56,081 nucleotides of DNA, from IMG/VR virus record IMGVR_UViG_3300044630_001132, positions 1-56,081 of that record, one strand, 5' to 3'. Shown here one piece after another: positions 24,294 to 51,462 of this stretch (the first letter of the stretch is position 1; each line of letters begins with the position of its first letter). Below the pieces are notes generated by a model. That model ran no database searches. It saw only the letters and a program-made list of their open reading frames with translations, and had not been told where the DNA came from. The DNA is from a virus. Position numbers and translations under genes: made by a program.

Positions 24294-25145
24294 CTATCTT
24301 GTTAAGTATCTAATAACAACTATTCCTGAACCACCATTTCCACCTAAACCGTTTCCTTCAACATCGTTTAGGCCTCCTCCACCACCTGATCCAGTATTTG
24401 CAGAAGCAGATTGTCCTTGACCACCAGCAGTTGCACCTCCACCACCGCCTCCAAGTCCACCACCAATAGGAGAATTATGTCCATTTCCGCCACCGCCACC
24501 ACCTGCATAAGCAATAGGGGATCCAGTTCTAAGAGAATTATTTATTGAAGAACCACCAGTAGATCCTGCACCATATTGGCTACCAACTGCATCAGGCTCA
24601 CTACCTGCACCTCCACCACCACGTCCACCTCTTCCACCACCTCTTGAACCAGGTGCACCATGTCCTTGTCCAACTATTCCTGTGCCACTTGGTCCACCAC
24701 CAGAACCACCATTAGCAGCAGTAAGATCGCCTCTATTGCCACCACCTCCACCTGTAGCGGTTAGTCCATTAAATATAGAATTTCCACCATTTCCTGCTTG
24801 TAAACTTCCAGCACTTCCTTGTGTTCCACCATTACCAACAGTGATTGTGTAAGATGCTGGTAAGAGTTTAGTAAAAGAACCAACTAAGTAACCTCCTGCT
24901 CCACCACCACCGCCACCAGTTTCATTGTTTGATCCACCACCACCACCGCCGCCAGCAAGAATAAAGTATTCACAATCACCACCAGATGTAACAATAAATT
25001 GTGAAGTTCCTGTAAATGTATGAACTGTATAATCTATATTATTTAATGTGTAATAAGTTATTTCGCCACCAGTGGCCATAAATCTCATTCTTTGTTGTTT
25101 TCTTTGTAGCCCTAGATTACCTCTAATGCTATTTATAAAAGGCAT
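24294..25145 (-). CDS. Glycine-rich tail adhesin
   Basis: This 283-residue protein begins MPFINSIRGNLG, the same style of N-terminus as the adhesin at 29997. After about 35 residues it has a beta-strand module (VHTFTGTSQFIVTSGGDCEY). The rest is made of polyglycine tracts separated by short variable loops and ends GGSGIVVIRYLTR. Glycine tracts of this kind form polyglycine type II helix bundles in the gp38 adhesin of phage S16, where the loops bind receptors. A receptor-binding role at the fibre tip is inferred by that analogy. It is the last gene of the array and follows the interrupted gene at 25712. Confidence 0.75.
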   Translation of the reverse strand: MPFINSIRGNLGLQRKQQRMRFMATGGEITYYTLNNIDYTVHTFTGTSQFIVTSGGDCEYFILAGGGGGGGSNNETGGGGGGAGGYLVGSFTKLLPASYTITVGNGGTQGSAGSLQAGNGGNSIFNGLTATGGGGGNRGDLTAANGGSGGGPSGTGIVGQGHGAPGSRGGGRGGRGGGGAGSEPDAVGSQYGAGSTGGSSINNSLRTGSPIAYAGGGGGGNGHNSPIGGGLGGGGGGATAGGQGQSASANTGSGGGGGLNDVEGNGLGGNGGSGIVVIRYLTR

Positions 25146-25154
25146 TTAAACTCC

Positions 25155-25712
25155 TTAAAAATTAAGATTTGAACTGCCTAAAACAATCCAAGCACTTGAT
25201 TTTCTTATAAAGGTAAAGTTATAAAAATCTATTTTTCCAGCACTACTTGTTGGTGATGGGTTTGTTCCAGTAGCCCACCTAATTGTTTGGTTTGCACCGT
25301 TAACACTTATTGAGTTTGGAAAATATCCAGTAGCACCTTGAACAACTGCTATAGATATTCCTGTTGATTTATCTTCTGTAGTTGGAAGATTAGTTAAAAT
25401 TACACCAAAGTTTGCTGATGGTGAAGAAACGTAATAGTTATTTGCTGTTGCAAAATCAACACTAACTGATCCAGACACTATTGACAATGTTGGAATTGAT
25501 TCAATTATTTCATTTACAGAAAAAAGACCATTAACTGTAACGTCCCCACTAAATGTTGAGTTTCCAGTAAAAGAAGAACTCCCAGAAACTGCTAAAGATG
25601 AAGCAGTTGTATGTTCATGAGGTGCAGGTTCACCAATTTAAGGAACCCAAGTATCTGTTGCAGAGTCATAAACTCTTGCTAATTTACCTACGCTATCATC
25701 TATAGTTGACAT
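25155..25712 (-). pseudogene. Fibre protein gene interrupted by an in-frame TAA
   Basis: ATG 25712 has a good AAGGAG site and opens a 185-codon frame that ends at 25155, except for a TAA at codon 25 (25640-25638), after DTWVP. The frame downstream stays open and clearly coding (IGEPAPHEHTTASS), and its C-terminal domain (ending SSAWIVLGSSNLNF) is a paralogue of those at 30785 and 37314. No ATG with a ribosome site exists after the TAA; only a TTG at 25487. A single C-to-T change (CAA to TAA) would explain it. It could be a true nonsense mutation, a read-through gene or an assembly variant. If inactive, the adhesin at 24294 may lose its partner. Confidence 0.75.
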
Positions 25713-25728
25713 TGTTTCTCCTTATTAA

Positions 25729-26049
25729 TTATACCACTGGGGTTATTTCAACCCATTCGGTATTCATCTCTTCCCAAACATAATATTTTCCTGGCTCATT
25801 TGGATATGCAATAGGTGCAACATATTCCCATTTATCTTCATCTAATATCCAAGAAGGGTATGGCTTAGGTGTTAAAAATTTTTCTAATTCTGTATTATAT
25901 GGATATCCTATAGCGGCAAAATTATTATGACTATATTCAACATATGAATATTCTGGATTTTGTGATTTAATAATTTCTATAAAATCATAATCACATACTA
26001 AAGTATCTTCAACAATATTTTCTGAATTAATTTTTGCCCAATTTGCCAT
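25729..26049 (-). CDS. Small acidic fibre-associated protein (cyanophage-like)
   Basis: The 106-residue protein starts MANWAKINSENIVEDTLV and is a shorter paralogue of the gene at 32949. Shared features are the N-terminal strand, NNFAAIGYPYN against KNYAGIGYTYD, and a C-terminal KPYPSWILDEDKWEYVAP stretch. The family is very common in aquatic phages, next to fibre genes. It is acidic, Trp- and Tyr-rich, and follows the glycine-rich adhesin at 26049 with a one-base overlap. A role as fibre chaperone or small fibre subunit is likely but unproven. Confidence 0.75.
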   Translation of the reverse strand: MANWAKINSENIVEDTLVCDYDFIEIIKSQNPEYSYVEYSHNNFAAIGYPYNTELEKFLTPKPYPSWILDEDKWEYVAPIAYPNEPGKYYVWEEMNTEWVEITPVV

Positions 26050-26780
26050 TATAGTACGTACCTTATAATTACTATTCCTGAAGAACCAGATCCACCTGGT
26101 GTATTTCTATTTTGATGATTTACTCTACCGCCGCCACCGCCACCTGATCCGTGACCAGATGCACTTCCTCCAGTACCATCACCGTTAATACCATTACCAC
26201 CGCCACCGACACCACCAGTTCCAGCACTGTGACCACAATCACCTTCATCTCTTCCTCCAGCACCGCCACCACCACCGTAATGAGTTCCTAAATAAAGTCT
26301 TCCAGGTCCACCATTTCTACTAGAAAAGGCTCCACCTGCTCCACCTCCACCAGGGCTGTTTGTAAAATTATCTGGAGACCCAGTTGTAGTTATTCCTCCA
26401 CCACCTGCAGAAATTGATAATCCAGTTCCTACAACACTAGATGTTCCACCTCCACTTTGAGTTCCACCTAAATTTCCTACTGCAACAGTGTATGAAGCAC
26501 CAGAAGAAACTGTAGCATTTGGAGTAAACTGAACACCTCCAGCACCTCCACCAGCACCACACTGACCATGTCCACCTCCAGCACCTCCACCGATAGCAAA
26601 TATTTCAACTACTCCACCAGTTATTACGTTAAAAGTAGATGTACTAGTAAAAGTATGAACTCTGTATCCACCAGAATCTGAAGTACTGCCACCAGTTGCA
26701 ACAACTTTAGCATACTTATTAACTCTGTTAGTTTTTGAATTATCACTAACTAATGTATTTCTAACTGATGTTACTGCCAT
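26049..26780 (-). CDS. Glycine-rich tail adhesin
   Basis: This 243-residue protein has the same plan as the other glycine-rich genes: a basic N-terminus of about 40 residues, a beta module (YRVHTFTSTSTFNVITGG), polyglycine tracts with variable loops rich in Asn, Asp, Ser and His, and the end SSGIVIIRYVL. It is coupled by one-base overlaps to the 109-residue protein before it and to the small acidic protein after it. A tip adhesin function is inferred from similarity to polyglycine-helix adhesins. The sequence of its loops differs from that of its paralogues. Confidence 0.75.
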   Translation of the reverse strand: MAVTSVRNTLVSDNSKTNRVNKYAKVVATGGSTSDSGGYRVHTFTSTSTFNVITGGVVEIFAIGGGAGGGHGQCGAGGGAGGVQFTPNATVSSGASYTVAVGNLGGTQSGGGTSSVVGTGLSISAGGGGITTTGSPDNFTNSPGGGGAGGAFSSRNGGPGRLYLGTHYGGGGGAGGRDEGDCGHSAGTGGVGGGGNGINGDGTGGSASGHGSGGGGGGRVNHQNRNTPGGSGSSGIVIIRYVL

Positions 26781-27109
26781 TACGAAATCTCCGAACCAAA
26801 CAAACCAAATACTACAGAACCACTTGATGCTCTTACTGTTACAATATCACTTGAATCAAGTGTTAATCCAACTGTTATCATAGCAGTATCGTTTGCAGGT
26901 AAAGAAGCATCATAAGTAATATAATGTTGATTTGCTAATGTTACACCATTTGGTCTTACTGCAATTCTATATGTTGCAGCAGTTGCTGCAAGATTGCAAA
27001 TAGATATTGTTGAAACTACAGTTTCGGTTGAACCAGGTACTGTGTAAAGAGTTGTATCTGTTGTTGCTGTAGGATTTGATTGTCCTAATACTTTATAACT
27101 TCTAGCCAT
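26780..27109 (-). CDS. Beta-rich fibre protein of the 110-residue family
   Basis: The 109-residue protein is a paralogue of the gene at 34753 (111 residues) and of the C-terminal half of the gene at 45246. They share TTLYTVPGSTETVVSTI-type strands, AVRPNG, an HYITYD-type turn and a final strand VFGLFGSEIS. Each of the three comes just before a glycine-rich adhesin. It is predicted to be an all-beta domain and probably links the fibre stalk to the adhesin or forms part of the tip. Function is inferred from context. Confidence 0.75.
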   Translation of the reverse strand: MARSYKVLGQSNPTATTDTTLYTVPGSTETVVSTISICNLAATAATYRIAVRPNGVTLANQHYITYDASLPANDTAMITVGLTLDSSDIVTVRASSGSVVFGLFGSEIS

Positions 27110-27754
27110 TTATGCCCCCATCATTAAAAATATGTCTTCCATGCCACTGCCGCCTTCAATTGCTATCCAGGCTGTACCGTTCCACACTAGTTGTTGATTT
27201 AACGCAGTGATATATACTATTGTACCAACAGTTGGAGATGGAATGTTGATATCTCTTGCTACTGTGCTTGCAAAAGCATTTATTCCTTTTTTAGCAATAA
27301 CGTTTCCAGAAATTGTTACATCTCCAGATACGCTTGCTGATAATGATCTAATTTCAGAATTTACAGTCAATGTGTCATAGGCTGTTGTTGGTGCAGAAAA
27401 AATGTGAGTTCCTGTCCAGGTGTAGTTTCTTCCTGTATCTACCTTTCCAGCAACTGCAAACCAAGTGTCAGTTCCCGCATCATACATGTATGCTGGCCTA
27501 CCTGTATCGTCTATGGTTGCATAAATTGCACTCCCAGATGGGGACACTGCTGTAGATGGAACGTTTGTTGCTGTTTTACTATATGTAAAAGTACTTGTTG
27601 TTGGAGTTCCTGTAACAGTATAGGATCCATTAAATGTTGAGTCTACACCACTAATTGTGATATATGTTCCATTGGTTAAACTATGGCTTGCTGACGTTGT
27701 AAGTGTTGCCACATTATCTGTAAGTTGTTTATTTGTAACTAATCTTAAAGGCAT
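27110..27754 (-). CDS. Tail fibre stalk/adaptor protein
   Basis: The 214-residue protein starts with a beta module (VATLTTSASHSLTNGTYI then VDSTFNGSYTV) that is also in the genes at 45246 and 37890. It then has a stalk-like part (DVTISGNVIAKKGINAF) and ends with TAWIAIEGGSGMEDIFLMMG, the same ending as in the gene at 45816. A run of six G before the ATG acts as ribosome site. A promoter with an extended -10 (27778-27786) drives it, directly after a terminator. It heads the cassette 27754-24294. Confidence 0.8.
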   Translation of the reverse strand: MPLRLVTNKQLTDNVATLTTSASHSLTNGTYITISGVDSTFNGSYTVTGTPTTSTFTYSKTATNVPSTAVSPSGSAIYATIDDTGRPAYMYDAGTDTWFAVAGKVDTGRNYTWTGTHIFSAPTTAYDTLTVNSEIRSLSASVSGDVTISGNVIAKKGINAFASTVARDINIPSPTVGTIVYITALNQQLVWNGTAWIAIEGGSGMEDIFLMMGA

Positions 27755-27777
27755 TTTATAAGCCCCCCATGTTTTTA

Positions 27778-27786
27778 ATTATAACA
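27778..27786 (-). promoter_or_regulatory. Extended -10 promoter of the distal fibre cassette
   Basis: TGT-TATAAT lies immediately after the T-run of the terminator and 24 bases before ATG 27754. No -35 is seen. Confidence 0.55.
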
Positions 27787-29996: not shown

Positions 29997-30776
29997 TTAT
30001 GGTTTAACATATCTTATCATGACAATACCAGATCTTCCAGCATTTCCACCGCCACCACCTGCACCAGTGTTATTTCCCAAATATGTTGTTCCTCCACCAT
30101 CTCTTGATCCACCTGCACCACCTCTAGCATATTCTGTTGAAGTTCCATTAAAGTTTATAGTAACACTTGCTCCACCTGGTTGAGAAGAAAGATCTCCACC
30201 GCCTTGAAGTCCAGCACCTCCAGCACCTCCACCAGATCCAGCACCCCAACTTAAATGTTGTTGAGCACCTCCGTTATTTCCTTGTCCAGCAGTACCACTT
30301 CCAAAACCAGTTCCTCTTCCTGCACCTCCACCAGATCCACCAGTAGTTCCAGCATATACGCTATCACCTCTACCACCATGACCTCCACCAATAGCACTTA
30401 CTAAAGAACCAATAGATGATACGCCGCCAGAACTTGGAACACTTGTTCCACCATTTCCAACTGTAATAGCATGAGTAATAGGAGTTACGTTAGAAATTGT
30501 TCCTTGTAGTAAACCTCCTGCACCACCACCTCCACCAGATCCACCAAAGTTAGTGTTTGGTCCACCACCTGATCCACCACCAGCGATAACTAAATAGTTA
30601 ATATCAGATTTACCACTTAAAACTTGAAATGTTCCACTGCTTGTAAATGTATGAACTATATAAGTTGTTCCACTAATAGTGGCTTCTGTCGTTACTCCGC
30701 CAGTTGCGGTAAATGGGCTTTGCTGCTGTCTTCCTGTTACGCCTCTAGCCCCACTGAATGATGATAATATTGGCAT
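29997..30776 (-). CDS. Glycine-rich tail adhesin
   Basis: This 259-residue protein has the N-terminus MPILSSFSGARGVTGRQQ, closely matching the style of the gene at 24294 (including ATGG before the beta module). A beta module (YIVHTFTSSGTFQVLSG) and YLVIAGGGSGGG lead into polyglycine tracts, ending GRSGIVMIRYVKP. It follows the 310-residue fibre gene at 30785, just as 24294 follows its paralogue. The adhesin role is inferred. Confidence 0.75.
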   Translation of the reverse strand: MPILSSFSGARGVTGRQQQSPFTATGGVTTEATISGTTYIVHTFTSSGTFQVLSGKSDINYLVIAGGGSGGGPNTNFGGSGGGGGAGGLLQGTISNVTPITHAITVGNGGTSVPSSGGVSSIGSLVSAIGGGHGGRGDSVYAGTTGGSGGGAGRGTGFGSGTAGQGNNGGAQQHLSWGAGSGGGAGGAGLQGGGDLSSQPGGASVTINFNGTSTEYARGGAGGSRDGGGTTYLGNNTGAGGGGGNAGRSGIVMIRYVKP

Positions 30777-30784: not shown

Positions 30785-31717
30785 TTAAATATTTAGATTT
30801 GTACTACCAAGTACTATCCAAGAATCGGATAATCTTAGAAGTGAGAATATGAAGATATCAATCTTATTTAGAGAATTTGTTGGGGTTGGAGCAGTTCCAC
30901 CAACCCATCTTATTGTTTGGTTTGTACCATTAACACTTATTGCATTAGGAATGTAACCACTTGATGCTTGCGTTACCATAAAAGACATTGTTGTTACTCT
31001 ATTGTTTGTTGTTGGAATATTTGTAAGTATTACACCAAAGTTTGCAATTGTTCCTGATGATGTATGAAAAATTGCACCTTCATTATAATTTCCAGTTACT
31101 GATCCAGATACAAACGATATACTATTTACAACTTCTGTAACTTCTGCAATATTTGTTATTCCAGTTACTGTTAAGTTTGTTAAGTTTGCTGTTGTTGCAG
31201 ATAATGTTGTTGAGTTTAATGTTGGAGCAACAACCGTTCCTGTAAAAGTAGGATTTGCAGTAGGTGCATATGCTGAAATATTTACTGGTGAAATATCATA
31301 ATTTTTATCAACCCAAACTTGACCATGTGTTGGTGTGGTAGGCTCATCATTTACATAAGAAACCACTCCAGCGGCTGTAACGCTTGGAACTGTTCCATCT
31401 TGATCTACCCAAATATACCCTTCAGGAAGAACTGTAGTGGTATTGTCTGCTCTAACCAGTAAATGAGGAATCGCTGTTTGAACAACACCTCCACCAGATG
31501 GTGTACTTTCTTGTAATTCTAATCTTAAATTAAAGTCTGATAAATGTGAATGAATACTGTCTGCTGCTGGCGATTCTGCACCTGTATAGTTATCTAATCC
31601 GTAATGATAAAGTTTAAAAGCCTCTACGATATTTGCTTGATCGTTTAATGAGGGGATCTTTGTATCAAATTCTGTAGCACCGTATCCAGATGCATCACTT
31701 AAAAATTGACCTGCCAT
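30785..31717 (-). CDS. Tail fibre protein with conserved C-terminal domain
   Basis: The 310-residue protein has an N-terminal part (MAGQFLSDASGYGATEF), two short modules of the GQVWVDKN type (residues about 120-160), a repetitive stalk (TLNSTTLSATTANLTNLTV) and a C-terminal domain of about 110 residues ending SDSWIVLGSTNLNI. That domain recurs at 37314 and in the interrupted gene at 25155. AAGGTG precedes ATG 31717 and an extended -10 lies at 31736-31744. It probably forms the stalk that carries the adhesin at 29997. Confidence 0.8.
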   Translation of the reverse strand: MAGQFLSDASGYGATEFDTKIPSLNDQANIVEAFKLYHYGLDNYTGAESPAADSIHSHLSDFNLRLELQESTPSGGGVVQTAIPHLLVRADNTTTVLPEGYIWVDQDGTVPSVTAAGVVSYVNDEPTTPTHGQVWVDKNYDISPVNISAYAPTANPTFTGTVVAPTLNSTTLSATTANLTNLTVTGITNIAEVTEVVNSISFVSGSVTGNYNEGAIFHTSSGTIANFGVILTNIPTTNNRVTTMSFMVTQASSGYIPNAISVNGTNQTIRWVGGTAPTPTNSLNKIDIFIFSLLRLSDSWIVLGSTNLNI

Positions 31718-32691: not shown

Positions 32692-32949
32692 TCAAGCAAG
32701 GTCGCCCCATGTTACAGTTTGTAGATTAAATACTGACTTAAATTCTATCCAAGTTCCATTTATTACTACATATAAACCTATAACTTCATTTAATTCCCCG
32801 CTTAATTTGAAATAAACTGTTCCTTCTTTTGCTGCATGTGTTGGATCTGCTGCACCAAATTCGTAGTTTGGTTGAACTCCAGCAATTGGAACCCATTCGG
32901 TTCCATTCCAAACTTGTGCTGGTCTTGAATTAGCAGATATGTTAGGCAT
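32692..32949 (-). CDS. Short fibre adaptor protein
   Basis: I place the start at ATG 32949, which overlaps the stop of the preceding gene (TAATG), rather than at the upstream ATG of the longest frame. The 85-residue product contains SRPAQVWNGTEWVPIAG near its start, a module also found at the N-terminus of the genes at 45816 and 40903 (RPAYVWNGTNWVPI and RPAYVWSGSQWIPV). It then has EGTVYFKLSGELNEVIG. The module is widespread in fibre stalks of aquatic phages. It probably acts as a link or cap in the fibre. Confidence 0.7.
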   Translation of the reverse strand: MPNISANSRPAQVWNGTEWVPIAGVQPNYEFGAADPTHAAKEGTVYFKLSGELNEVIGLYVVINGTWIEFKSVFNLQTVTWGDLA

Positions 32950-33317
32950 TATTCTGGGACTTCTTCTTCCCATTCTCCCTTATTATCATTCCAAGTATAA
33001 AATCCTTCTGATTCATATGGGTATGGAATTGGAGGTTCCCACTGGTATGTTGTTGTATTTAAAATAAATTTTTCAAAAGGTTTTGGTGGAATAAATACAT
33101 CTATAGAACTATCGTAAGTATATCCTATGCCAGCATAATTTTTTCTTATATTTGAATTGTAAGATGTTTGTTTCCATGTACCACCAAAAATATTGTGACA
33201 AAAGGTAGCACCAACTGATTCTGATTCTATACCATTACCATCTAAACAATCTTTGTTGTCTACAACGATAACTCTTGTAACTATGTTGTTTTGATCTATC
33301 TCTGCAAAATGTGCCAT
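32949..33317 (-). CDS. Cyanophage-like fibre-associated protein
   Basis: The 122-residue protein (MAHFAEIDQNNIVTRVIVVD start) is very close in pattern to a family I know from cyanophages and pelagiphages: FGGTWKQTSYNSNIRKNYAG, IGYTYDSSIDVFIPPKPF, and a Trp-rich end. A paralogue is at 25729. AAGGAGGAAA lies before ATG 33317. It is acidic and aromatic, without membrane segments. Its usual place beside fibre genes suggests a small fibre subunit or chaperone; no function is established. Confidence 0.85.
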   Translation of the reverse strand: MAHFAEIDQNNIVTRVIVVDNKDCLDGNGIESESVGATFCHNIFGGTWKQTSYNSNIRKNYAGIGYTYDSSIDVFIPPKPFEKFILNTTTYQWEPPIPYPYESEGFYTWNDNKGEWEEEVPE

Positions 33318-33348: not shown

Positions 33349-33873
33349 TTAGACTGTTTCGTAGGCAATAGAAAAACCTATTGAATCTATATTTACTATA
33401 GCCCTATTTGGTTGATTTCCAAAGTATGATTCAAAATTTGAGGCATCTGATCTAAAAGCCATTTGGGTAGTTGTTAAAGCCCATGTAGTACCAGCAAAGT
33501 TTACGTTTCCACTTGATCCGTAGATTATAAAACTTCCTATTGGTTGCCCAGCAGATGCTGCTGCTAATGGAAGTGTAAGCGTTACATTTGCCCCAGCAGT
33601 ACCATTTGCAGTAACTGCAATATATCCATTTGCAATAACAGTTTTTCCTAACTTAATATATTTACAATAGTTAATAGTTTTATTTATATTTGATGTACCC
33701 TGATCTAATTGAGGATTAAAAGACGTCCAAGCACTTGCTGAAAAATTTAATACAGTAGCGTATGTTGCACTTGCAGAGGCACTAGTTAAATAACCAAGTG
33801 ATGCAACTTCTGCATCTGTTGCTAATACACTACTTGTTGTTAATAAACTAGCAATATCTCTTGCTCTACCCAT
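33349..33873 (-). CDS. Tail fibre protein (MGRARDIA type)
   Basis: This 174-residue protein has the N-terminus MGRARDIASLLTTSSVLATD, common in fibre proteins of cyanophages and pelagiphages. After a SASASATYAT stalk segment comes a C-terminal beta domain (KYIKLGKTVIANGYIAV and GSFIIYGSSGNVNF). It is separated from the preceding glycine-rich gene by one base. It is likely a short trimeric fibre with a distal jelly-roll-like head. The function is inferred from family resemblance and context. Confidence 0.75.
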   Translation of the reverse strand: MGRARDIASLLTTSSVLATDAEVASLGYLTSASASATYATVLNFSASAWTSFNPQLDQGTSNINKTINYCKYIKLGKTVIANGYIAVTANGTAGANVTLTLPLAAASAGQPIGSFIIYGSSGNVNFAGTTWALTTTQMAFRSDASNFESYFGNQPNRAIVNIDSIGFSIAYETV

Positions 33874-33874: not shown

Positions 33875-34753
33875 TTATTCTGTCCTATAGCGAATTATTA
33901 CAATTCCACTTCCACCAGCAGATCCAGCACCAGTTCCAGCACCATTACATCCACCAAGTCCACCACCGCCTCCACCAGTATGTTGTTGTCCTGGCGATCC
34001 TCCACCCCTACAAAACTCTCCACCATTTCCGCCACCACCTAATCCTCCTGCTGAGGTTCCGCCGCCGTTGTGAGCAGCACCACCACCGCCGCCACCAGAA
34101 TAATGAGTTGAAGTACCATTTATTGAACTTGATAATCCTGCTCCACCAGCACCACCTGGTTGTCCACTTGCACCATTTGCATTTGTACCAACTGCACCAG
34201 CACCGCCACCGCCACCGCCATTATGATGACCTCCACCACCATGCCCCCCTGCATGTCCTTGACCAGCGATTCCAGCACCACCAACACTTGTTTGGTTGTG
34301 TGCAGAGCCTCCTCCTGATCCTCCACTTCCACCTAATTGATTTGTAGTATGTGATCCACCAAATCCTCCACCTGTTGCAACAACTGTACTAAAAAATGAA
34401 TCTACTCCTTTAACTCCAGTACTTGCATTTGCTGAAGGGCCTCCACTACCAACTTGTACTGAGTATGTTCCTACTCCAACTGGTGTTTGTCCAGTTAAAA
34501 ATCCTCCCGCACCTCCACCACCTCCTGCAGGTGTACTACCACTAATACCTCCACCACTTCCTCCTCCAGCAACTACTAAATAGTCAACACTTCCTGCTCC
34601 GCTAATTACAGTAAATGTTCCACTGCTTGTATATGTGTGAACACGATACGTAATTCCACCACTAGTATGATTTATAGTAGTGTTTCCTCCATTTGCTACA
34701 AGGAATCCACCACTAGGGTTTTTTCCAACTGAGTTTAATGAACTTATTGGCAT
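33875..34753 (-). CDS. Glycine-rich tail adhesin
   Basis: This 292-residue protein follows the common plan: a short N-terminus (MPISSLNSVGKNPSGGF), a beta module (YRVHTYTSSGTFTVISGAG), YLVVAGGGSGGG, then polyglycine tracts with His-, Asn- and Ala-containing loops, ending GGSGIVIIRYRTE. Histidines are notably frequent in its loops. It overlaps the preceding 111-residue beta protein by one base. The same three-gene order is found at 45816-44218 and 27110-26049. Confidence 0.75.
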   Translation of the reverse strand: MPISSLNSVGKNPSGGFLVANGGNTTINHTSGGITYRVHTYTSSGTFTVISGAGSVDYLVVAGGGSGGGISGSTPAGGGGGAGGFLTGQTPVGVGTYSVQVGSGGPSANASTGVKGVDSFFSTVVATGGGFGGSHTTNQLGGSGGSGGGSAHNQTSVGGAGIAGQGHAGGHGGGGHHNGGGGGGAGAVGTNANGASGQPGGAGGAGLSSSINGTSTHYSGGGGGGAAHNGGGTSAGGLGGGGNGGEFCRGGGSPGQQHTGGGGGGLGGCNGAGTGAGSAGGSGIVIIRYRTE

Positions 34754-40902: not shown

Positions 40903-41802
40903 TTAGCCTCCCAGCATTATATCTGTTGCTCTGAACGGATATATCCTGTTTCTTGTAGTTGTTGCTGAACCCATCATTATCCTAGCATCGAACGTTGATC
41001 CAGCGGGTGGTCTTTCTGAAAATGCAATGTACCCTTCTGAGTCTATCATAAATCCATCTCTAGGAAGCATTGACTGCCAGACGTATTCAGGAAAGTCTAC
41101 TGTTTGTATTATACCATTAATCGTAAGTAATAGTCTATAGGGATTTGTAAGATTTACTATTTCTCCTCTATATGTTGGATAGAATCTATTCTCTATACCG
41201 TCAAATTTCCACTTTAAATCATCTAATGGAATTATGTCATCGTTTACAAATAAAGATATTTTATTATTAGTATCATCATAATTTACTGATACCCCCGCAG
41301 TTGAGGCACTTGAAAATAGTGAGGCAATTAAGTCTTGAATAAACTCTTGCCCAGAAGATCCGTAGTTAATGTATTGTGCAGAAGCACTTTCTTTACTTAG
41401 ATATTCTGCTGAAGCATTAGTCTTATTTAAATAGTTTGAAGACGCTGTTGTATTAGACAAATAGTTTGATGTAACATTATTTGATAATGTTACTAAGGAA
41501 GAATTTATAGCACTTACAGAAGCACTATTAGAGTTAGTAAAGTTAAATAAATCAGTTGTTGTTGCAAACCCTGCAGATGCTGACATTAACTCTTCTAAGT
41601 CAGTGTGAGTATGGGTACTGCCTGTTACAGTGTCATCTGAGTCTACCCATAGAAGTCCAATCTTAGGGTCACTTGGAGATGCTGATTGATAAGCAACATA
41701 CGTATAGTTTCCAATATTAGTTATATCATTTACAGGAATCCATTGTGATCCAGACCACACATATGCTGGTCTAGTTGTTAAGGAAAATGGGGCTGATGCC
41801 AT
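40903..41802 (-). CDS. Tail fibre stalk/adaptor protein
   Basis: The 299-residue protein starts with the module RPAYVWSGSQWIPVND, then IGLLWVDSDDTVTGSTHTH, followed by ASxxYL repeats (residues about 115-145, for example SNYLNKTNASAEYLSKESAS) forming a stalk. The C-terminal part (KWKFDGIENRFYPTYRGEIV then YRLLLTINGIIQTVDFPEYV) looks like a beta domain found in aquatic phage structural proteins. It precedes the 1002-residue protein and overlaps the chaperone-like gene at 41802 by one base. Confidence 0.8.
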   Translation of the reverse strand: MASAPFSLTTRPAYVWSGSQWIPVNDITNIGNYTYVAYQSASPSDPKIGLLWVDSDDTVTGSTHTHTDLEELMSASAGFATTTDLFNFTNSNSASVSAINSSLVTLSNNVTSNYLSNTTASSNYLNKTNASAEYLSKESASAQYINYGSSGQEFIQDLIASLFSSASTAGVSVNYDDTNNKISLFVNDDIIPLDDLKWKFDGIENRFYPTYRGEIVNLTNPYRLLLTINGIIQTVDFPEYVWQSMLPRDGFMIDSEGYIAFSERPPAGSTFDARIMMGSATTTRNRIYPFRATDIMLGG

Positions 41803-42188
41803 TATGCTTCATCTCCAACTATAAAGTCTTCGTCTTCTGGCCTTACTTCTCCAGGAAATCGAGGGTATTCAACATATGCTGGAAACTCTGTATTAGAAGG
41901 AAGATCTCTTAATGCTTGTCTATAAATAGCCCACTCAGATTTTAATTCCTCTGTAATAGGAGCATCTGATATTTGTGTCCAATCACAATTTAACAATCTT
42001 CTATTTCTAGACTCTCTTAGTTCAACCCATCTAACAATATTATTTTTTTCAAAATCTATCATTTCATTTACTTTAGTATCTAATTCCTCTTCAGTATATT
42101 CAATATACTCACCGAGTTCATTAGCACTCTTATGACTAATTAAACTAGTTCTAAACATTTCTCTTAATTCTATTTCTTTTTCACTCAT
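41802..42188 (-). CDS. Tail fibre assembly chaperone-like protein (Phage_tail_APC type)
   Basis: The 128-residue acidic protein contains RLLNCDWTQISDAPITEELK followed by WAIYRQALRDLPSNTEFP. This DWTQ...DAP...W..YRQALRD pattern is the signature of the phage tail assembly chaperone family PF16778, found beside fibre genes. Such proteins help fold or trimerise fibres and do not usually stay in the virion. It follows three tandem glycine-rich adhesins and precedes a stalk gene. Among the small acidic proteins of this array it is the only one with a recognised chaperone signature. Confidence 0.85.
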   Translation of the reverse strand: MSEKEIELREMFRTSLISHKSANELGEYIEYTEEELDTKVNEMIDFEKNNIVRWVELRESRNRRLLNCDWTQISDAPITEELKSEWAIYRQALRDLPSNTEFPAYVEYPRFPGEVRPEDEDFIVGDEA

Positions 42189-42190: not shown

Positions 42191-43192
42191 TTAAAATGAA
42201 GTAGGATTAGTAAAACCAAATCTTACTATAACTACCCCATTACCTCCCCTTCCTGCTGAACCACTTGGACTTGCATGCGATCCACCACCACCGCCACCTA
42301 AACCATCTGTACCGTTTCCTGGAATTACGTTAGGACTATGACTTGCACCATTTCCTCCACCACCAAGTCCACCTGTAGAACTTGCAGTATGTCCATGTCC
42401 ACCACCTCCACCTGAGTAATGTGTTGCTGTACCAGTAATGCTGTTTAATAATCCTGGTCCACCTGGTCCGCCATTGTTACCAGTAACACTAGTTCCAACT
42501 CCACCTGCACCACCACCGCCACCACCACCCCAACTGCTACCATGCCAACCATGACCACCAAAGTTTCCTTGACCTTGTTGAGCCGCACCACCATGGCCTC
42601 TTTGGTTTCCAATAACATCTCCGCCACCAGAACTATTTCCCATTGCTGCTCCACCACCTGAACCACCTGGTGTACCATTGCCATAAGCACATTGATAACT
42701 ACCTCCACCTCCACCACCTATAGCCTGCAAATGCATAAATAATGAATTACCACCTGTACCTCCTGGAGCAGCACTACTATAAGGACTAGAAGATCCACCT
42801 GCACCAACCGTTATTGGTGTACTAGTTGTATCTACTAAAATATTAGATTCGTAAATATAACCGCCTCCGCCACCACCTCCACCATGATGATTTCCTCCAC
42901 CACCACCGCCACCAATCACTAAGACATCTGCATATGCACCAATGAATGGAGATAAATCTACAACTTGTGAACCTGTATTATTAAATGACTTAAAAGCAAA
43001 CCAACTTGCACCTGATGCGTAAGTTGTCCAACCATAACTTTGAATCCATTGAACAAATGTTGGACTTGCACTAAATATTTGTGTTTTAGGCACACCTTGA
43101 TTAATTTTTGTTGTAACAAATCTATATAAGGCTGGATTTGCTCCAGCAGGCAAAACACTTGCTAATTCAGAAGTAGAAAAATTATCTTGCAT
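42191..43192 (-). CDS. Glycine-rich tail adhesin, third of a tandem triplet
   Basis: The 333-residue protein has an N-terminal domain of about 75 residues (FSTSELASVLPAGANPALYR, ... SYGWTTYASGASWFAFKSFN) shared with the next two genes upstream. It then has ADVLVIGGGGGGGNHHGGGG and long polyglycine tracts with His-, Asn- and Ser-rich loops, ending GGNGVVIVRFGF. It overlaps the second gene of the triplet by one base. The shared N-domain probably fixes the adhesin to a common fibre site, while the glycine-rich part varies. Confidence 0.8.
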   Translation of the reverse strand: MQDNFSTSELASVLPAGANPALYRFVTTKINQGVPKTQIFSASPTFVQWIQSYGWTTYASGASWFAFKSFNNTGSQVVDLSPFIGAYADVLVIGGGGGGGNHHGGGGGGGGYIYESNILVDTTSTPITVGAGGSSSPYSSAAPGGTGGNSLFMHLQAIGGGGGGSYQCAYGNGTPGGSGGGAAMGNSSGGGDVIGNQRGHGGAAQQGQGNFGGHGWHGSSWGGGGGGGAGGVGTSVTGNNGGPGGPGLLNSITGTATHYSGGGGGHGHTASSTGGLGGGGNGASHSPNVIPGNGTDGLGGGGGGSHASPSGSAGRGGNGVVIVRFGFTNPTSF

Positions 43193-44217
43193 TATCCAAT
43201 ACCCCCTGGAGAATAAACAATTTGAGTTCTAATAACAACTATACCAGTTGCACCGTTACCGCCTCTAATACCGTTACTATGACCTCCACCGCCACCGCCA
43301 CCACCACTATTTGGAGCAGCATTTGCGTGATTACTAACCCAAGATGACTGTTGTAGTCCTAATCCTCCACCACCAAGTCCACCAGAACCACTATAGTAAG
43401 AATGATTCCAACCACCCCCACCACCTGCAAACCAACGTGTATATCCTAAAATTGTATTTGATAAACCAGTGCCACCTGGTCCACCATTTTCATTACCAGT
43501 TCTTTGTACGCCTACAGATCCAGCACCACCTCCGCCACCACCAGGGTATGCTGGGCTAGAATGCCACCCACCACCACCGTGATTTCCTTGACCAGTTACT
43601 GCATAACCAGGAGTTCCTCTTTGACTATTTGATCTCCAAGTAAAATTATCACCGTTACCACCAGAATGTCCAATTGCTCCTCCGCCACCAGAACCTCCAG
43701 GAGCACCAGAACCAACGTTACTATGAGTTCCTCCACCTCCACCACCTATTGCCACTATGTCGTCAATAACTGAGTTAGCACCATTAGCACCCATTACGTT
43801 GGAATTACTTGATATAGCACCAATACCACCTTCACCAACTGTAATAGAAATTGATGATTTATTAAAAACTTTAGTTGTTAAACGATAACCACCTGCTCCA
43901 CCACCGCCACCATGTTGTCCACCACCACCGCCACCACCTGCAACACATAAAACATCAAAAGTGTTTTTTTCAAATGGTGTTATTGTTGTTGTAGTAGTTC
44001 CAGCAGTATTAAATTCTTTACATGCATAAAATGCATTTGATTGAAAATATATTTCCCATCCAAGTGATTCTAAATAATTTAAATAACTTATACCATTATA
44101 TGTTTTTGTTCTAGTAAAATCATTTTGCATTGCATAAGAGAAATATCTATATACCCCGCTAGTATTTCCATTTTTTAATAATGCAGTAACGTCATCAGAA
44201 GTATAAATCTCTGGCAA
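43192..44217 (-). CDS. Glycine-rich tail adhesin, second of a tandem triplet
   Basis: The 341-residue protein begins MPEIYTSDDVTALLKNGNTS and shares the N-terminal domain of its neighbours (YLNYLESLGWEIYFQSNAFY, ACKEFNTAG). A beta module with TFDVLCVAGGGGGGGQHGGG leads into polyglycine tracts. Loops contain Trp, Ser and Tyr residues at positions where neighbours differ. It ends GGNGATGIVVIRTQI and abuts the gene at 44218. Confidence 0.8.
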   Translation of the reverse strand: MPEIYTSDDVTALLKNGNTSGVYRYFSYAMQNDFTRTKTYNGISYLNYLESLGWEIYFQSNAFYACKEFNTAGTTTTTITPFEKNTFDVLCVAGGGGGGGQHGGGGGAGGYRLTTKVFNKSSISITVGEGGIGAISSNSNVMGANGANSVIDDIVAIGGGGGGTHSNVGSGAPGGSGGGGAIGHSGGNGDNFTWRSNSQRGTPGYAVTGQGNHGGGGWHSSPAYPGGGGGGAGSVGVQRTGNENGGPGGTGLSNTILGYTRWFAGGGGGWNHSYYSGSGGLGGGGLGLQQSSWVSNHANAAPNSGGGGGGGGHSNGIRGGNGATGIVVIRTQIVYSPGGIG

Positions 44218-45246
44218 TTAAATCGACCCCGCTGGGAAAGATAGTGGGAATCTTACTATTACTACTCCAGATCCGCCATTTCCACCAATGAAGGATGTTG
44301 TCCAACTGCCACCGCCACCGCCGCCAGTATTTGCTATGCCATCAGTTGCTTTGTACATGTTTGTTCCACCAAAACCTCCACCACCATTTCCACCTACTCC
44401 ACCAGGGTTTGATTCACCACTTCCACCACCGCCACCACCAGCGTAAAATTTAGTTACTCCAGTTATTGTGTTTGATAATCCTGAACCACCAGCACCACCT
44501 CTATTACCAGTTCCAGTTCCGCCATCAGCACCAGCAGCACTGGCACCACCACCGCCACCACCTACGTGATTTGATCCATAGTATCCACGACCACCATTAT
44601 TGCCTTGCCCAGAAGTTCCTGTACCACCAATACTAAAATTACCATTACTTGGACCAAGGGATCCTCCACCACCAGATCCTCCAGCAGCACCATTTCTTGT
44701 TGGGTCTCCACTCCAAGCACCACCTGCACCTCCACCTATTGATGTTATTGAACTAAATACAGAGTTTTGACCATTGCTACCTCTAACATCTGTTGCTTGA
44801 ACACTTGTACCACCATTACCCACTGTAACCGTTACGTTACCATTTACTGCAAAATTTGTTTCTAATCTATATCCTCCTGCACCTCCACCACCACCGTGAT
44901 GTCCAGCACCTGAACCTCCACCTGCAACAACAAGTACGTCAGCATTTGTTCCGTTAAATGGACCAGCATTCCATGTTGTTGTACCACTTATAAATTCTTT
45001 GTAAGCATAATAATTTCCATTTGTATCTCTATATGTTGTATAACCATTTGAAGAAATATAATCTAAATAAGCAGTACCAGATAAAATATTTGCTTTTGAT
45101 TTACCCTGGCTAATTGCCCATGCAACATATGAAAATGTTGCGGGTGATGAATTAATTGGAATAATATTTGCTAATTCAGAATATGAAAATAAAGTTTGAC
45201 CTACCGAACTACTTCCTGTAGTTCCTCTTATACTATTAACAGCCAT
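44218..45246 (-). CDS. Glycine-rich tail adhesin, first of a tandem triplet
   Basis: The 342-residue protein starts AVNSIRGTTGSSSVGQTLFS, so it joins a MAVxSIRG-type leader (also in 26049 as MAVTSVRN) to the triplet N-domain (YLDYISSNGYTTYRDTNGNY). The beta module ADVLVVAGGGSGAGHHGGGG begins the glycine-rich part, which ends GGSGVVIVRFPLS. It follows the 189-residue beta protein with a one-base overlap, keeping the order stalk, beta protein, adhesin. Confidence 0.8.
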   Translation of the reverse strand: MAVNSIRGTTGSSSVGQTLFSYSELANIIPINSSPATFSYVAWAISQGKSKANILSGTAYLDYISSNGYTTYRDTNGNYYAYKEFISGTTTWNAGPFNGTNADVLVVAGGGSGAGHHGGGGGAGGYRLETNFAVNGNVTVTVGNGGTSVQATDVRGSNGQNSVFSSITSIGGGAGGAWSGDPTRNGAAGGSGGGGSLGPSNGNFSIGGTGTSGQGNNGGRGYYGSNHVGGGGGGASAAGADGGTGTGNRGGAGGSGLSNTITGVTKFYAGGGGGGSGESNPGGVGGNGGGGFGGTNMYKATDGIANTGGGGGGSWTTSFIGGNGGSGVVIVRFPLSFPAGSI

Positions 45247-45815
45247 TAGACTATTTCTCCCCCAAATAAAGATATAGCGATATTTGGAGAACCAAACGCT
45301 ACTATTTTATCTCCAGATGTAATTGTTAATCCTAAAGTTAATGAAATTTGATCTCTTGCAAGTATTCCTGGGCCCCATGCTATAAAATGTTTTTTACTTA
45401 AAGTTTCTCCAGTTTTTACTGCTGCTAAAAAGAAAGTTCCATCTATATCTGAGCAATTTGTTACTGTTATTGTAGATATTAAAGTTTGAGTACTTGGTGA
45501 TGCTGGGCATGTATAAACTATTGTCTCTGGAACATATGAAACACTTGCTCCTACTGTTGCTGCAGTTACAACATTGCTTGCTGATACAGGGTATGTAAAA
45601 CTTGTATTGTTTGGTACTGTGGAAACATTTTGAGTTCCATTAAATACTGCATCTATTCCAGTTACGGTTACGGAATTACCTTCTAAAATATTGTGGGCTG
45701 AGGCAGTTGTTAAGGTTACAAGGTTACTGGTAAGGTTTCTAAATGAAATGGATCTTACTTCTGGTGTTAAAAGTGTTTGACCTAAAATCTTTAAGGTTTT
45801 TACTTGTTGTGCCAT
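45246..45815 (-). CDS. Fibre protein: beta module plus 110-residue family domain
   Basis: This 189-residue protein is a fusion. Residues about 25-95 form the module LVTLTTASAHNILEGNSVTV with VFNGTQNVSTVPNNTSFTYP, which is also at the N-terminus of the gene at 27110. Residues about 98-189 form the domain of the genes at 26780 and 34753 (TLISTITVTNCSDIDGTFFL, KKHFIAWGPGI, AISLFGGEIV). It thus shows that the modules are exchangeable. It comes before the adhesin triplet. Confidence 0.75.
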   Translation of the reverse strand: MAQQVKTLKILGQTLLTPEVRSISFRNLTSNLVTLTTASAHNILEGNSVTVTGIDAVFNGTQNVSTVPNNTSFTYPVSASNVVTAATVGASVSYVPETIVYTCPASPSTQTLISTITVTNCSDIDGTFFLAAVKTGETLSKKHFIAWGPGILARDQISLTLGLTITSGDKIVAFGSPNIAISLFGGEIV

Positions 45816-46511
45816 TTATACTCCCATAAGCAGTAGCGTATCAAATATATCTCCGCCGCCGCCAGCACCTGACATTTCAATCCAGGTACTTCCATTATAC
45901 ACTTTCAATATCGGTGCTTCTGCTTCTGTTGTGTCGATCCAAAGTTGTCCAGTTGCAATTTGATATGCAGGGGATGAAGAGTTGTAGGTAATATTTGGTT
46001 CATAGGTAGCAGATGCTGCTGTAACTGTTAGGTATGTTGCTGAAGCATTGGCGGTAGAAAGAACATTCATTATATTTTGATTAGTAAACTGAGTAGAAGA
46101 TGAGTTATATACCAATAATTCATTATTTAAAGGGGTAGCAATGGTAGTATCTGTAAGGCTGTTTAAATTTGTAATGGTAGAAGATATTGTGATAGTATTT
46201 GTAGCACTAGCAGCATTTACGGTTATGCTTGTTCCAGCCTGTATGTTAAAACTATCAAAGTCAGAGTCTGACAGTATTGTTTCGGTAGTAGGTGTTGTTG
46301 TTATAAACCCAAATCCATTAGGGTTTACTATTCCAGTACCTAAATAGTCATTACTATCTACCCAAACTGTTCCAACATCTAAATTATTTACATCTGGCTG
46401 AGTTGGTTGATATAAAACTGCATCGTTTCTTGTTTGAGTAATAGGAACCCAATTAGTTCCATTCCAAACATATGCTGGTCTAGTAGTATCTAGTATTTGT
46501 GCTGATGACAT
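45816..46511 (-). CDS. Tail fibre stalk/adaptor protein
   Basis: The 231-residue protein starts with the module RPAYVWNGTNWVPITQTRND and DVGTVWVDSND, then a repetitive beta segment (TSITVNAASATNTITISSTI) and ASxTYL units. The C-terminus is GQLWIDTTEAEAPILKVYNG, WIEMSGAGGGGDIFDTLLLM, the ending shared with the gene at 27110. It heads the cassette of adhesins 45246-42191. There is no obvious promoter of its own. Confidence 0.8.
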   Translation of the reverse strand: MSSAQILDTTRPAYVWNGTNWVPITQTRNDAVLYQPTQPDVNNLDVGTVWVDSNDYLGTGIVNPNGFGFITTTPTTETILSDSDFDSFNIQAGTSITVNAASATNTITISSTITNLNSLTDTTIATPLNNELLVYNSSSTQFTNQNIMNVLSTANASATYLTVTAASATYEPNITYNSSSPAYQIATGQLWIDTTEAEAPILKVYNGSTWIEMSGAGGGGDIFDTLLLMGV

Positions 46512-49279: not shown

Positions 49280-49294
49280 ATCAATCCTTAATTA

Positions 49295-49322
49295 GAGAGG
49301 GTAGGTATTTCACTACCCCCTC
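49295..49322 (-). terminator. Intergenic hairpin after the 472-residue fibre gene
   Basis: A ten-base stem (49295-49304 with 49313-49322, one G-T pair) with an eight-base loop follows the stop at 49336. The minus-strand flank is TAATTAAG, not a T-run, so termination may be weak; it may instead be a processing or stability element. Confidence 0.45.
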
Positions 49323-49335
49323 AATATATTTTATA

Positions 49336-50754
49336 CTATCCAACAATAACTACGCGGTATGCGTTGTTTGTTGGTGCTGTTGCAAATGATACAGTTACTG
49401 TATTTGCGTCTGTTCTAACTACATCAGTTTCTACTGTGTCGAAAGTTGAGTTATCATAAACATTAACAACAACATCTCTGCTGTTTAGATTATGAGTAAT
49501 TGCAAATGAAGTACTTGATCCATTTCCAACGTTAGCAGATGCTTTCTTTGTAAAACCATCTGTTACTAATGCTGTTTCTAATGTACTTTTATCTACTGCT
49601 AATCCACTTGCTGTTGACAAGTAAGAGTTGGATGCTGCAAGAATTACAGAAGCACTAAGTGTTCCTGCACCTTCTGCATTATCAGTATATGTAAAGTCAA
49701 TAGTTCCAGAATCTGTTGCCATTGTTCCAACAACATCTTCTACTGACTCTTGAAAATCAGTAATAGCAGATGCACTATGTGTATGACCTTCTAGTGATAC
49801 AGCAGTACTTGTTGTACCGTTGTTTGCAGTCCACTTGTCTTCTGATTCATCCCAAAAGAATGAAGCATTAGTACTGTCTCCACGCTCTACTTCAATACCA
49901 CCATCTGCAACAGGAGTTCCTGTAGCATTACTGTTAATAAGAATAATATTATCTTCTACAGTTAATGTTGCTGTATTTAAGTATGTTGTGCTACCTGATA
50001 CTGTTAAGTTTCCGTCTACAACTAAATCACCAGCGACTGTTACGTTATCTGGTAAACCAATTTGTACAGCACCTGCTGATGCAGATACAGTAATTTCATT
50101 GTTTGTTCCAGTAAGACTTGTTACGCCAGTGTTAGTAATTGTTAAAGCGGCACCTTCGCCACTTCCGCTAATATCAATACCAGTTCCTGCTGTTGCAGAA
50201 GCAACATAGTCACCTGTTGTATCAGTTCCTAGTGCTACAGAGTTTGGTTGAACTGTTGCATTAATTGTGATGTCTTGATCACCTTTGAAACTAGCACTAC
50301 CACTTAAATCTCCACCTAGGGAGATTATTCTTGCTGTTTCTAATGCGGAAGCAGTTGCTGCGTTTCCTGTAGTATTAGCATTAATTGTTGATGGTAAACT
50401 TAGTGTCACAGAACCTGTTGATGCAGATACATCAATTTCGTTTGCAGTGCCAACAAGGGCTGTTACACCAGTGTTAGTAATAACTAAACTACTTGTTTCG
50501 TCATTATAATTTACATCTATACCAGTTCCTGCATCAATTAAAGACGCAATCAAATCTTCAATTTCTTCGTTAGAAGCACCTACGAATTGCCATGCTGAAG
50601 CAGAGCCATTGTAGAATTTTAATTTTTGATTTGAGGTATTAAAGTAAACTTGACCTGCTTTTCCAGTTTCTGGATCTGTTCCAAGATTTTGAATAACACC
50701 ATTCAGTAATTGATTGGTATTAAGATCTAAGTTTGTTAAAAATTTTCTACTCAT
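49336..50754 (-). CDS. Tail fibre protein
   Basis: The 472-residue protein has the N-terminus SRKFLTNLDLNTNQLLNGVI shared with the gene at 46529. Residues about 100-240 are repeated beta units (GTGIDVNYNDETSSLVITNT, then GTGIDISGSGEGAALTITNT). A cyanophage-like stalk unit follows (VAGDLVVDGNLTVSGSTTYL). The last 75 residues (SFAITHNLNSRDVVVNVYDN to AYRVVIVG) form a beta domain common at fibre ends. AGGTG lies before ATG 50754. It is one of the proximal fibre genes and probably the main long fibre or its base. Confidence 0.85.
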   Translation of the reverse strand: MSRKFLTNLDLNTNQLLNGVIQNLGTDPETGKAGQVYFNTSNQKLKFYNGSASAWQFVGASNEEIEDLIASLIDAGTGIDVNYNDETSSLVITNTGVTALVGTANEIDVSASTGSVTLSLPSTINANTTGNAATASALETARIISLGGDLSGSASFKGDQDITINATVQPNSVALGTDTTGDYVASATAGTGIDISGSGEGAALTITNTGVTSLTGTNNEITVSASAGAVQIGLPDNVTVAGDLVVDGNLTVSGSTTYLNTATLTVEDNIILINSNATGTPVADGGIEVERGDSTNASFFWDESEDKWTANNGTTSTAVSLEGHTHSASAITDFQESVEDVVGTMATDSGTIDFTYTDNAEGAGTLSASVILAASNSYLSTASGLAVDKSTLETALVTDGFTKKASANVGNGSSTSFAITHNLNSRDVVVNVYDNSTFDTVETDVVRTDANTVTVSFATAPTNNAYRVVIVG

Positions 50755-50773
50755 TTATTTCACCTGCCCTTTT

Positions 50774-51118
50774 TTATGAAAAATATGCCTTTCCTGAAAA
50801 TGCTCCAGCAAAGGTTAGTACTATAGTATTTTCATTAGGATAGTTATATGACCCCTCAATAACTGTTCCTGCTGAATCTACTACTGTTACATTAGGTATA
50901 AACCCTAATCCGTGATTGACAGTCCATACTGTTGCTGCTGTTGTTTGTGTATGAACATATCCTAACTCGCCATAGTCAACTGTTCCTGCTGGACCTTGTG
51001 GACCAGAGGTTCCAAGACTTATTACAACTGTTTGTTCGTTTACTGATACGTCTACATTTTGTTCTGCAGATATAACTGTTACTGGACTTTCAACAACTGA
51101 TACAGTTACTTCTGCCAT
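50774..51118 (-). CDS. Short fibre protein with collagen-like turn
   Basis: The 114-residue protein has a Val-rich strand region (TVSVVESPVTVISAEQNVDV), the collagen-like GTSGPQGPAG near residue 40, and a C-terminal beta domain (ATVWTVNHGLGFIPNVTVVD then NTIVLTFAGAFSGKAYFS). That last domain is common in phage fibre proteins and resembles the C-terminal domain of the gene at 49336. It overlaps the BppU-like gene by one base. Confidence 0.8.
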   Translation of the reverse strand: MAEVTVSVVESPVTVISAEQNVDVSVNEQTVVISLGTSGPQGPAGTVDYGELGYVHTQTTAATVWTVNHGLGFIPNVTVVDSAGTVIEGSYNYPNENTIVLTFAGAFSGKAYFS

Positions 51119-51462
51119 TAACGAGTCACCTCTGGGGTAACATTAAATCTGCCTTCGATTAAACGATCTGTAATACCACTTACCGATTCTACTTCAAGAT
51201 CGTAAACGTGGTCCCCAGTGATGAAATTTGTTGTTGTTGAATCTGGTATAAGAATATCTATTGTTCCAGCACTTCCACCAAGGGTAATGCCACTTCCATT
51301 TGTTAAAAATACAATATAGTCAGTTGAATCGTGAGTTTCTCTTACTTGTAAACGTGCTGAATATCCAGTAAGATTTACTGGTGTTTCGTCAATTTTATAG
51401 GTCAATGTCCTACGGAATGTGCTTCCTTGTGGACAGACAAAGTTCAATTTCCCTGGGGTCAT
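51118..51462 (-). CDS. BppU-like baseplate/fibre docking protein
   Basis: The 114-residue all-beta protein follows the plan of the BppU N-terminal domain: LNFVCPQGSTFRRTLTYKID, PVNLTGYSARLQVRETHDST and DHVYDLEVESVSG. The gene at 32313 is a paralogue. It is the first gene of the fibre array and could anchor fibres to the baseplate. It has an extended -10 promoter and a leader whose 5' end folds into a hairpin that touches the AGGAG ribosome site. Confidence 0.75.
   Translation of the reverse strand: MTPGKLNFVCPQGSTFRRTLTYKIDETPVNLTGYSARLQVRETHDSTDYIVFLTNGSGITLGGSAGTIDILIPDSTTTNFITGDHVYDLEVESVSGITDRLIEGRFNVTPEVTR

Follow-up and report, generated by a model that had tools for sequence, protein, structure and literature searches.

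Does a phage that encodes many similar adhesins display them together, or does it hold most of them in reserve? The question is raised by IMG/VR record IMGVR_UViG_3300044630_001132 (positions 1-56,081, all of which is called the window here), a linear fragment of a viral genome in which the 27 kb from 24294 to 51462 hold an array of tail-fibre-like genes that encodes about ten different tip proteins (Table 1). A preliminary description of the same DNA had seen duplicated, exchangeable cassettes there and had proposed either a branched fibre system or a store of alternative tips. Based on the comparisons below, the region is best read, with a probability of about 0.6, as the host-recognition cluster of a tailed phage in which multiple adhesins are expressed together as plug-in tips and have been diversified by recombination. 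Freshwater Actinobacteria, the probable hosts, are hard to grow and the fibres of their phages have been little described; the array shows how such phages may track changing host surfaces.

In this model, several parallel short fibres would be built from one kit of stalk, adapter and exchangeable tip. The adapter at the stalk end would be either a small beta-sandwich protein of 110 residues (beta-110) or a C-terminal SWIV domain, to which the tip would dock via a short N-terminal plug. Most tips appear to be glycine (Gly)-rich and adhesin-like, others lectin-like (LamG) or of other folds, and some cassettes would include a small chaperone-like protein. The genes would be made together, giving several tip types per virion, and recombination at plugs and adapters would exchange, lose or fuse tips while stalk and adapter remain.

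Repeated cassettes of stalk, adapter and tip

All-against-all comparison of the window's own proteins (BLASTP and phmmer) bore out that both cassette types occur three times. The beta-110 proteins 26780 and 34753 (genes are cited by an end coordinate) are similar from end to end (E=9e-27), and the third copy, 45246, is a fusion of the N-terminal module of stalk 27110 (E=1e-12) with a beta-110 domain, its C-terminal half matching 26780 at E=5e-14 and 34753 at E=2e-5. The three SWIV proteins are alike over their final ~120-140 residues (25155/30785, E=5e-39; 25155/37314, E=2e-29; 30785/37314, E=4e-26). Stalks 45816, 35088, 40903 and 46529 are likewise related (E 1e-12 to 1e-5), with common N- and C-terminal motifs. 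The Gly-rich tips are mutually related by phmmer, and in the domain scans (Pfam and PHROGs) the curated cut-off of PF21722 (Gly_rich_2, 24.3 bits) was exceeded by eight proteins: 24294, 26049, 29997, 33875, 42191, 43192, 44218 and the C-terminus of 46529. The tips have 10-15 Gly-rich motifs each and 36-44% Gly; conservation is 78-100% in the motifs vs 33-94% between them and is higher in the motifs in every orthologue pair, an identity that is partly compositional because the tip sequences are of low complexity.

These results agree with the module fusions described earlier, both for 45246 and for 46529, which ends in its own Gly-rich domain, and refine several of the cassettes. The one spanning 45816-42191 does combine stalk, beta-110 and Gly tip, but with three tandem tips instead of one. 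In that spanning 25712-24294 the SWIV/Gly-tip paralogy holds, but the SWIV frame is broken by a TAA after codon 24. The supposed MP-type adhesin at 36598 is instead a LamG/ConA lectin with only the N-terminal plug in common with the Gly-rich tips. Nor is the 27 kb purely an adhesin array, since it also holds a carbamoyltransferase, a small open reading frame (ORF), 27835, and probable chaperones. Relatives exceed 80-87 kb in length, and since the window is itself only a linear fragment, the array accounts for no more than roughly one third of the genome rather than nearly half.

The cassette pattern is not due to chance, as indicated by the E-values together with the same gene order on independent contigs. 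In the relative G001 (3300037189_002988), whose portal and ribonucleotide reductase (RNR) are both 95% identical, array order is kept gene for gene. Contig L088, with an S1002 (the 1002-aa structural protein of the array) 46% identical, repeats the order S1002 / SWIV / LamG and has three consecutive SWIV/Gly pairs. Comparison of cassette number and order, as proposed in the preliminary description, thus gave a conserved order in G001 and a variable number, with five stalk/beta-110/tip cassettes plus others in G003 (3300031857_000082). A phylogeny of 33 beta-110 domains places 45246 and 34753 with their positional orthologues in starred clades and, at moderate support, 26780 with its own; the additional beta-110 genes of G003 cluster with those of contigs G008, G011 and G016. 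As the paralogues carry their own positional orthologues in relatives, the duplications are old, and a recent triplication of the cassettes is ruled out.

Some relatives carry further gene runs. In contig G008, a Trp halogenase gene adjoins a second Gly-rich run (18448-23707), whose five large proteins, called at 253-394 aa, have N-termini that do not resemble those of the window tips. In G014 (10600-16692), and also in G011, G016 and G006, about eight tandem proteins of ~180-260 aa replace part of the array; they are unrelated to the window cassettes.

Tip replacement and adapter-specific plugs

In a locus-by-locus comparison, identity to relatives is 72-97% for head genes and for most stalks and adapters. 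At 36598, G001 has a Gly-rich tip instead of the LamG protein; the two have 24% identity when alignment is forced, compared with 75% for the SWIV gene on one side and 84% for the stalk on the other. BLASTN returns two homologous blocks interrupted across the tip; G002 (3300042691_002288) has LamG as in the window. The stalk and tip joined in 46529 are separate genes in G002 (20939-22918 and 20016-20939). At the right end of the array, G001 retains only a 67-codon frame that starts with the residues of the 25712 gene and then diverges, and the final cassette is present, 95% identical, in contig L210 (3300042691_011198). There, the orthologue of SWIV gene 25712 (2892-3449) is open and 95% identical downstream, so that the stop in the window is a nonsense allele or an error in this contig.

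A mosaic gene was found at 33349. Downstream of tip 20775, G001 has two tandem genes, 21652 and 22719, which differ in both plug and body. The first 60 bp of 33349 are identical to 21652 at 58 of 60 positions, vs 46 of 59 for 22719, and its bp 120-525 are identical to 22719 at 348 of 405. Judged from the sequences, 33349 would be the outcome expected of a deletion via recombination at the plug; splitting of one gene into two, the reverse direction, is the alternative. The earlier description of duplicated, exchangeable cassettes therefore stands in large part, given the paralogy, the tip-only replacement, the mosaic gene, the variable cassette number and a single-copy version in actinophages.

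The pairing of tips with adapters was counted over the examined loci, which comprise 71 distinct beta-110 and 61 SWIV proteins. A Gly-rich protein comes next after 27 of the former and 26 of the latter, mostly within 0-14 bp, and a LamG protein after one and three, respectively. Once near-identical plugs were removed, the first 10 tip residues predicted the adapter type with 82% leave-one-out accuracy; 200 shuffles averaged 50% and reached 69% at most. Since Gly tips behind the two adapters can be told apart (18 of 20 correct after SWIV, 25 of 28 after beta-110), the plug follows the adapter and not the tip fold. LamG tips behind SWIV have the MP-type plug in the unrelated contigs L088 and L230.

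Perhaps this pairing reflects a more general plug-and-socket system, with ~10 tips per virion, two adapters corresponding to two plug families, any fold functioning behind the right plug, new repertoires arising through plug recombination, and the kit distributed across aquatic-phage lineages. This wider proposal is tentative and may well claim too much. If the adapter-specific plug rule is true, the adhesins of many uncultured aquatic phages would become recognisable by sequence.

Probable co-expression weighed against other explanations

Array genes lie on the minus strand with gaps of -1 to 80 bp, most of them <30 bp; the exceptions are the inserted carbamoyltransferase and the SWIV gene with the stop. 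The ratio of nonsynonymous to synonymous substitution rates (dN/dS) is below 1 in every truly orthologous array gene, with tips at 0.08-0.5 vs portal and RNR at 0.05; at swapped loci the ratio is meaningless. Based on the tight spacing, the purifying selection and the lack of a detected switching enzyme, all cassettes are likely co-expressed, and as genes packed in this operon-like manner are probably made together, several tip types would be present on a single virion. This differs from a silent or switchable store in which one or few tips are made and the rest form a reservoir accessed by inversion, a diversity-generating retroelement or gene conversion. Such a store would be in line with the many related tips with conserved plugs, with the nonsense codon in 25712 and with the tandem-gene recombination that did occur at 33349. 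However, nearly all genes are open, and neither a reverse transcriptase nor a tyrosine integrase or serine recombinase/resolvase was found in the window and six relatives, seven records that are fragmentary. The array also lacks long inverted repeats, having only short imperfect arms of 75-84% complementarity. A diversity-generating retroelement or phase-variable fibre was rejected on the enzyme search in these incomplete records, and the reservoir read into the array earlier is very improbable. Ordinary accumulation of tail-fibre genes could also have built the array with no shared docking logic, through lateral replacement of whole units, with conserved N-termini reflecting common descent only, as would suit the old beta-110 paralogues with their positional orthologues and the relatedness of plugs by descent within lineages. 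The different plugs of Gly tips after SWIV and beta-110, the MP-type plug of LamG tips in L088 and L230 and the mosaic 33349 speak for more than this, and such simple accumulation seems rather improbable. An assembly artefact, with chimeric or collapsed repeats producing the cassettes, might be suspected in a metagenomic contig with repetitive glycine codons and one in-frame stop, but is scarcely credible given that independent contigs assembled from other samples (G001, G002, L210) repeat the order, as isolate genomes do in miniature.

Alternatively, the Gly-rich and LamG proteins could be decorations of the virion surface, either head fibres or general adhesins to particles and exopolysaccharide, and not specific receptor-binding tips. 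The AlphaFold model of beta-110 (26780), an all-beta sandwich, gave weak matches in the PDB, among which a Bdellovibrio fibre tip stands beside a turret protein and a trimeric cement protein; PHROGs places the S1002 family in its head and packaging category, and LamG and CBM-like tips would fit glycan binding. Against the viral library, however, the same model reached template-modelling (TM) scores of up to 0.94 with phage proteins, many of them uncharacterised, and of about 0.85 with cyanophage tail fibre-like proteins. A tail-fibre assembly chaperone is encoded within the array, variation is concentrated in the tips, host range in hafunaviruses goes with the Gly-rich adhesin (PMC8651126), and the Gly-rich adhesins of T-even phages bind OmpC (PMC12892980). 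Decoration is therefore unlikely, and the domain type and pattern of variation of the tips suggest that they may bind receptors. The SWIV model returned nothing below E=0.04 from the PDB, a profile scan of the beta-110 alignment gave no sufficiently conserved stretch, and antibody chains matched by a Gly tip in the PDB were put down to composition.

Several observations weigh against a co-expressed cluster of plug-in tips. One SWIV gene (25712) carries a stop, the tip sequences are of low complexity, and plug sequences are phylogenetically non-independent. Of the 71 beta-110 genes, 13 precede the S1002 structural protein and not a tip. Structural similarity of beta-110 (TM about 0.5) extends to head cement and turret proteins and not just to fibre tips, so that some cassettes could decorate the head. 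Finally, the Gly tips of two phages isolated on the same 'Ca. Planktophila' strain, LanE43AprE7 (E7) and F5 (OX376640, OX376641), are 99-100% identical, which speaks in favour of the cluster reading but may reflect kinship only as the two are close relatives.

Related fibre systems and the probable host

The closest counterparts to the cassettes are found in cultured actinophages. E7 has a stalk, beta-110, two Gly tips, three more tips and an APC2-type protein, and in both E7 and F5 the order of stalk, beta-110, Gly tips, further tips and APC2-type protein is identical to that of the window. These phages differ in that a 39 kb genome holds a single beta-110 cassette, which has five tips, and lacks SWIV and LamG cassettes; their host is also known. 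The corresponding island of Planktophila phages was reported to hold part of the tail fibre, two collagen-like and three DUF2541 proteins, to be extremely variable by recruitment and possibly to concern host recognition (PMC10202952); judging by order and composition, the collagen-like proteins likely correspond to Gly tips. In phiPsal1 (MG835450, Pontimonas), an 86-aa stalk, beta-110, a Gly tip and an APC2-like protein are consecutive as in the window, although this single cassette lies directly after the tail genes. Its Gly tip (15857-16753, PF21722 E=1e-23) is split into two hypothetical proteins in the public annotation. In the window the stalk/beta-110/Gly-tip/APC2 order occurs at 27754-25729 with all genes adjacent and at 36572-32949 with one extra tip gene. 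As the kit is single-copy in two cultured phage sets and amplified here, receptor choice becomes testable, and the pair of E7 and 'Ca. Planktophila' LanE-43 offers one cassette to probe.

Resemblances to more distant systems are partial. The T-even gp38 of T2, S16 and PP01 is a polyglycine II sandwich and a separate small tip protein on the fibre (PMC6851490, PMC12892980). Window tips similarly alternate ten or more Gly-rich motifs with variable segments, but are larger, have a short plug instead of a helical Trp attachment domain (no Trp is invariant in the window tip alignment) and occur in eight copies vs one; a PDB search with a Gly tip gave no gp38 match. A tblastn search of named phages with a Gly-rich tip gave no match either, probably because the low-complexity filter masks the query. 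Hafunaviruses, which are haloarchaeal myoviruses, carry a hypervariable region in which a small protein comes after a Gly-rich adhesin (PMC8651126), but belong to a different virus lineage with a single adhesin gene described per genome. Pelagimyophages and cyanomyophages have large hypervariable islands with fibres, ConA domains and glycosyltransferases, and the available text on them (PMC7029224) does not mention repeated adapter/plug cassettes. The array likewise borders a glycosyltransferase gene (23150) and varies among relatives, and S1002 is common to it and cyanomyophages, whereas their genomes are T4-like, the flanking genes are others and the window portal is nearest to Streptomyces phages. 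In Ackermannviridae such as CBA120, several receptor-binding proteins from one cluster are carried together (PMC11721090), but these are beta-helix depolymerases joined by XD/TD domains. No gp10/XD/TD-type branching domain or beta-helix spike was detected in Pfam and PHROGs scans of window proteins. S1002 is a candidate attachment hub. Within the known hypervariable islands of Gly-rich adhesins, the array is unusual in how many tips it has, in swaps that exchange the tip alone for one of another fold, and in the pairing of plugs with adapters.

The window portal is 53-55% identical to those of Streptomyces phages, G001 and G003 carry WhiB genes, treated as an actinophage marker (PMC6802176), and the cassette occurs in two actinobacterial phage groups. 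Together these indicate an actinobacterial host, probably freshwater Actinobacteria; a portal search of bacterial genome contigs returned no relative. Freshwater Actinobacteria are abundant and highly microdiverse, for which phage predation is the assumed cause (PMC10202952).

Table 1 Genes of the fibre array and an adjacent gene in the window (pLDDT, predicted local distance difference test)
Feature	Position	Strand	Evidence
Stalk-like virion protein, array head, 472 aa	49336..50754	-	phrog_8309/356/2647 tail and virion matches; 93% identical in G001, G002
Long stalk with C-terminal Gly-rich tip, 916 aa	46529..49279	-	PF21722 E=5.5e-9, residues 738-908
Cassette A1 stalk	45816..46511	-	Paralogue of 35088, 40903
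Cassette A1 adapter, N-module + beta-110 fusion	45246..45815	-	Starred clade with G001, G002 orthologues
Cassette A1 Gly-rich tip 1	44218..45246	-	PF21722 E=3.5e-17; 14 Gly-rich motifs
Cassette A1 Gly-rich tip 2	43192..44217	-	PF21722 E=3.2e-25
Cassette A1 Gly-rich tip 3	42191..43192	-	PF21722 E=2.3e-18
Tail-fibre assembly chaperone-like	41802..42188	-	PF16778 Phage_tail_APC E=7e-21; PHROGs tail fiber assembly E=4e-20
Stalk paralogue	40903..41802	-	E=1e-10 to 45816
S1002, 1002-aa virion structural protein	37890..40898	-	phrog_5838, 1046 bits; 43-45% identity to T4-like cyanophage virion structural proteins
Cassette B1 SWIV adapter	37314..37880	-	E=4e-26 to 30785
Cassette B1 tip, LamG/ConA lectin	36598..37305	-	PF13385 E=3.7e-17
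Cassette A2 stalk	35088..36572	-	Paralogy; 84% in G001, G002
Cassette A2 beta-110 adapter	34753..35088	-	E=9e-27 to 26780
Cassette A2 Gly-rich tip	33875..34753	-	PF21722 E=2e-19; orthologous tip with greatest divergence, 54-61% identity
Mosaic tip, plug of one tandem gene + body of next	33349..33873	-	bp identity to G001 21652, 22719
APC2-family small tip-associated protein, chaperone-like by position	32949..33317	-	Paralogue of 25729, E=3e-14; phrog_7759 E=2e-46 (unknown function)
Cassette B2 SWIV adapter with own stalk	30785..31717	-	Paralogy; 90-93% in G001, G002
Cassette B2 Gly-rich tip	29997..30776	-	PF21722 E=1e-13
Cassette A3 stalk	27110..27754	-	N-module common with 45246, E=1e-12
Cassette A3 beta-110 adapter	26780..27109	-	AlphaFold: 8-strand beta-sandwich, pLDDT 89.8
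Cassette A3 Gly-rich tip	26049..26780	-	PF21722 E=1.4e-9
APC2-family small protein	25729..26049	-	phrog_7759 E=1e-20
Cassette B3 SWIV gene, in-frame TAA at codon 25	25155..25712	-	Open orthologue L210 2892-3449
Cassette B3 Gly-rich tip	24294..25145	-	PF21722 E=1e-21
Lysozyme-like SLT gene	22644-23153	+	Pfam E=5.5e-6

The array is bordered by the glycosyltransferase 23150 (a weak Pfam match) on one side and on the other by a tryptophan halogenase (52230-53828, minus strand; PF04820 E=1e-108). Halogenases lie near fibre genes likewise in G008 and in the Actinomycetia phage DSL-LC01. The carbamoyltransferase between two cassettes (28185-29735, plus strand) is of the NodU/TobZ type and is 92-98% identical at the same position in G001 and G002. 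A promoter scan of the array gave as many sites as the shuffled expectation, which leaves only single strong sites as a basis for promoter claims. One such site, a perfect TTGACA-17-TATAAT (28137-28109, minus strand), lies upstream of the 81-aa ORF 27835, and a strong terminator-like hairpin downstream of it (27819-27793), which suggests that this ORF may be expressed separately within the array. Outside the array, a 1181-aa protein (16732-20277, minus strand) without Pfam or PHROGs match has 42% identity in G003, vs 88% for portal and capsid, and is a further fast-evolving virion protein that may be surface-exposed. Lastly, the stalk gene 49336 contains a 97-nt internal repeat (50050-50146 and 50392-50488) whose copies are 74% identical.

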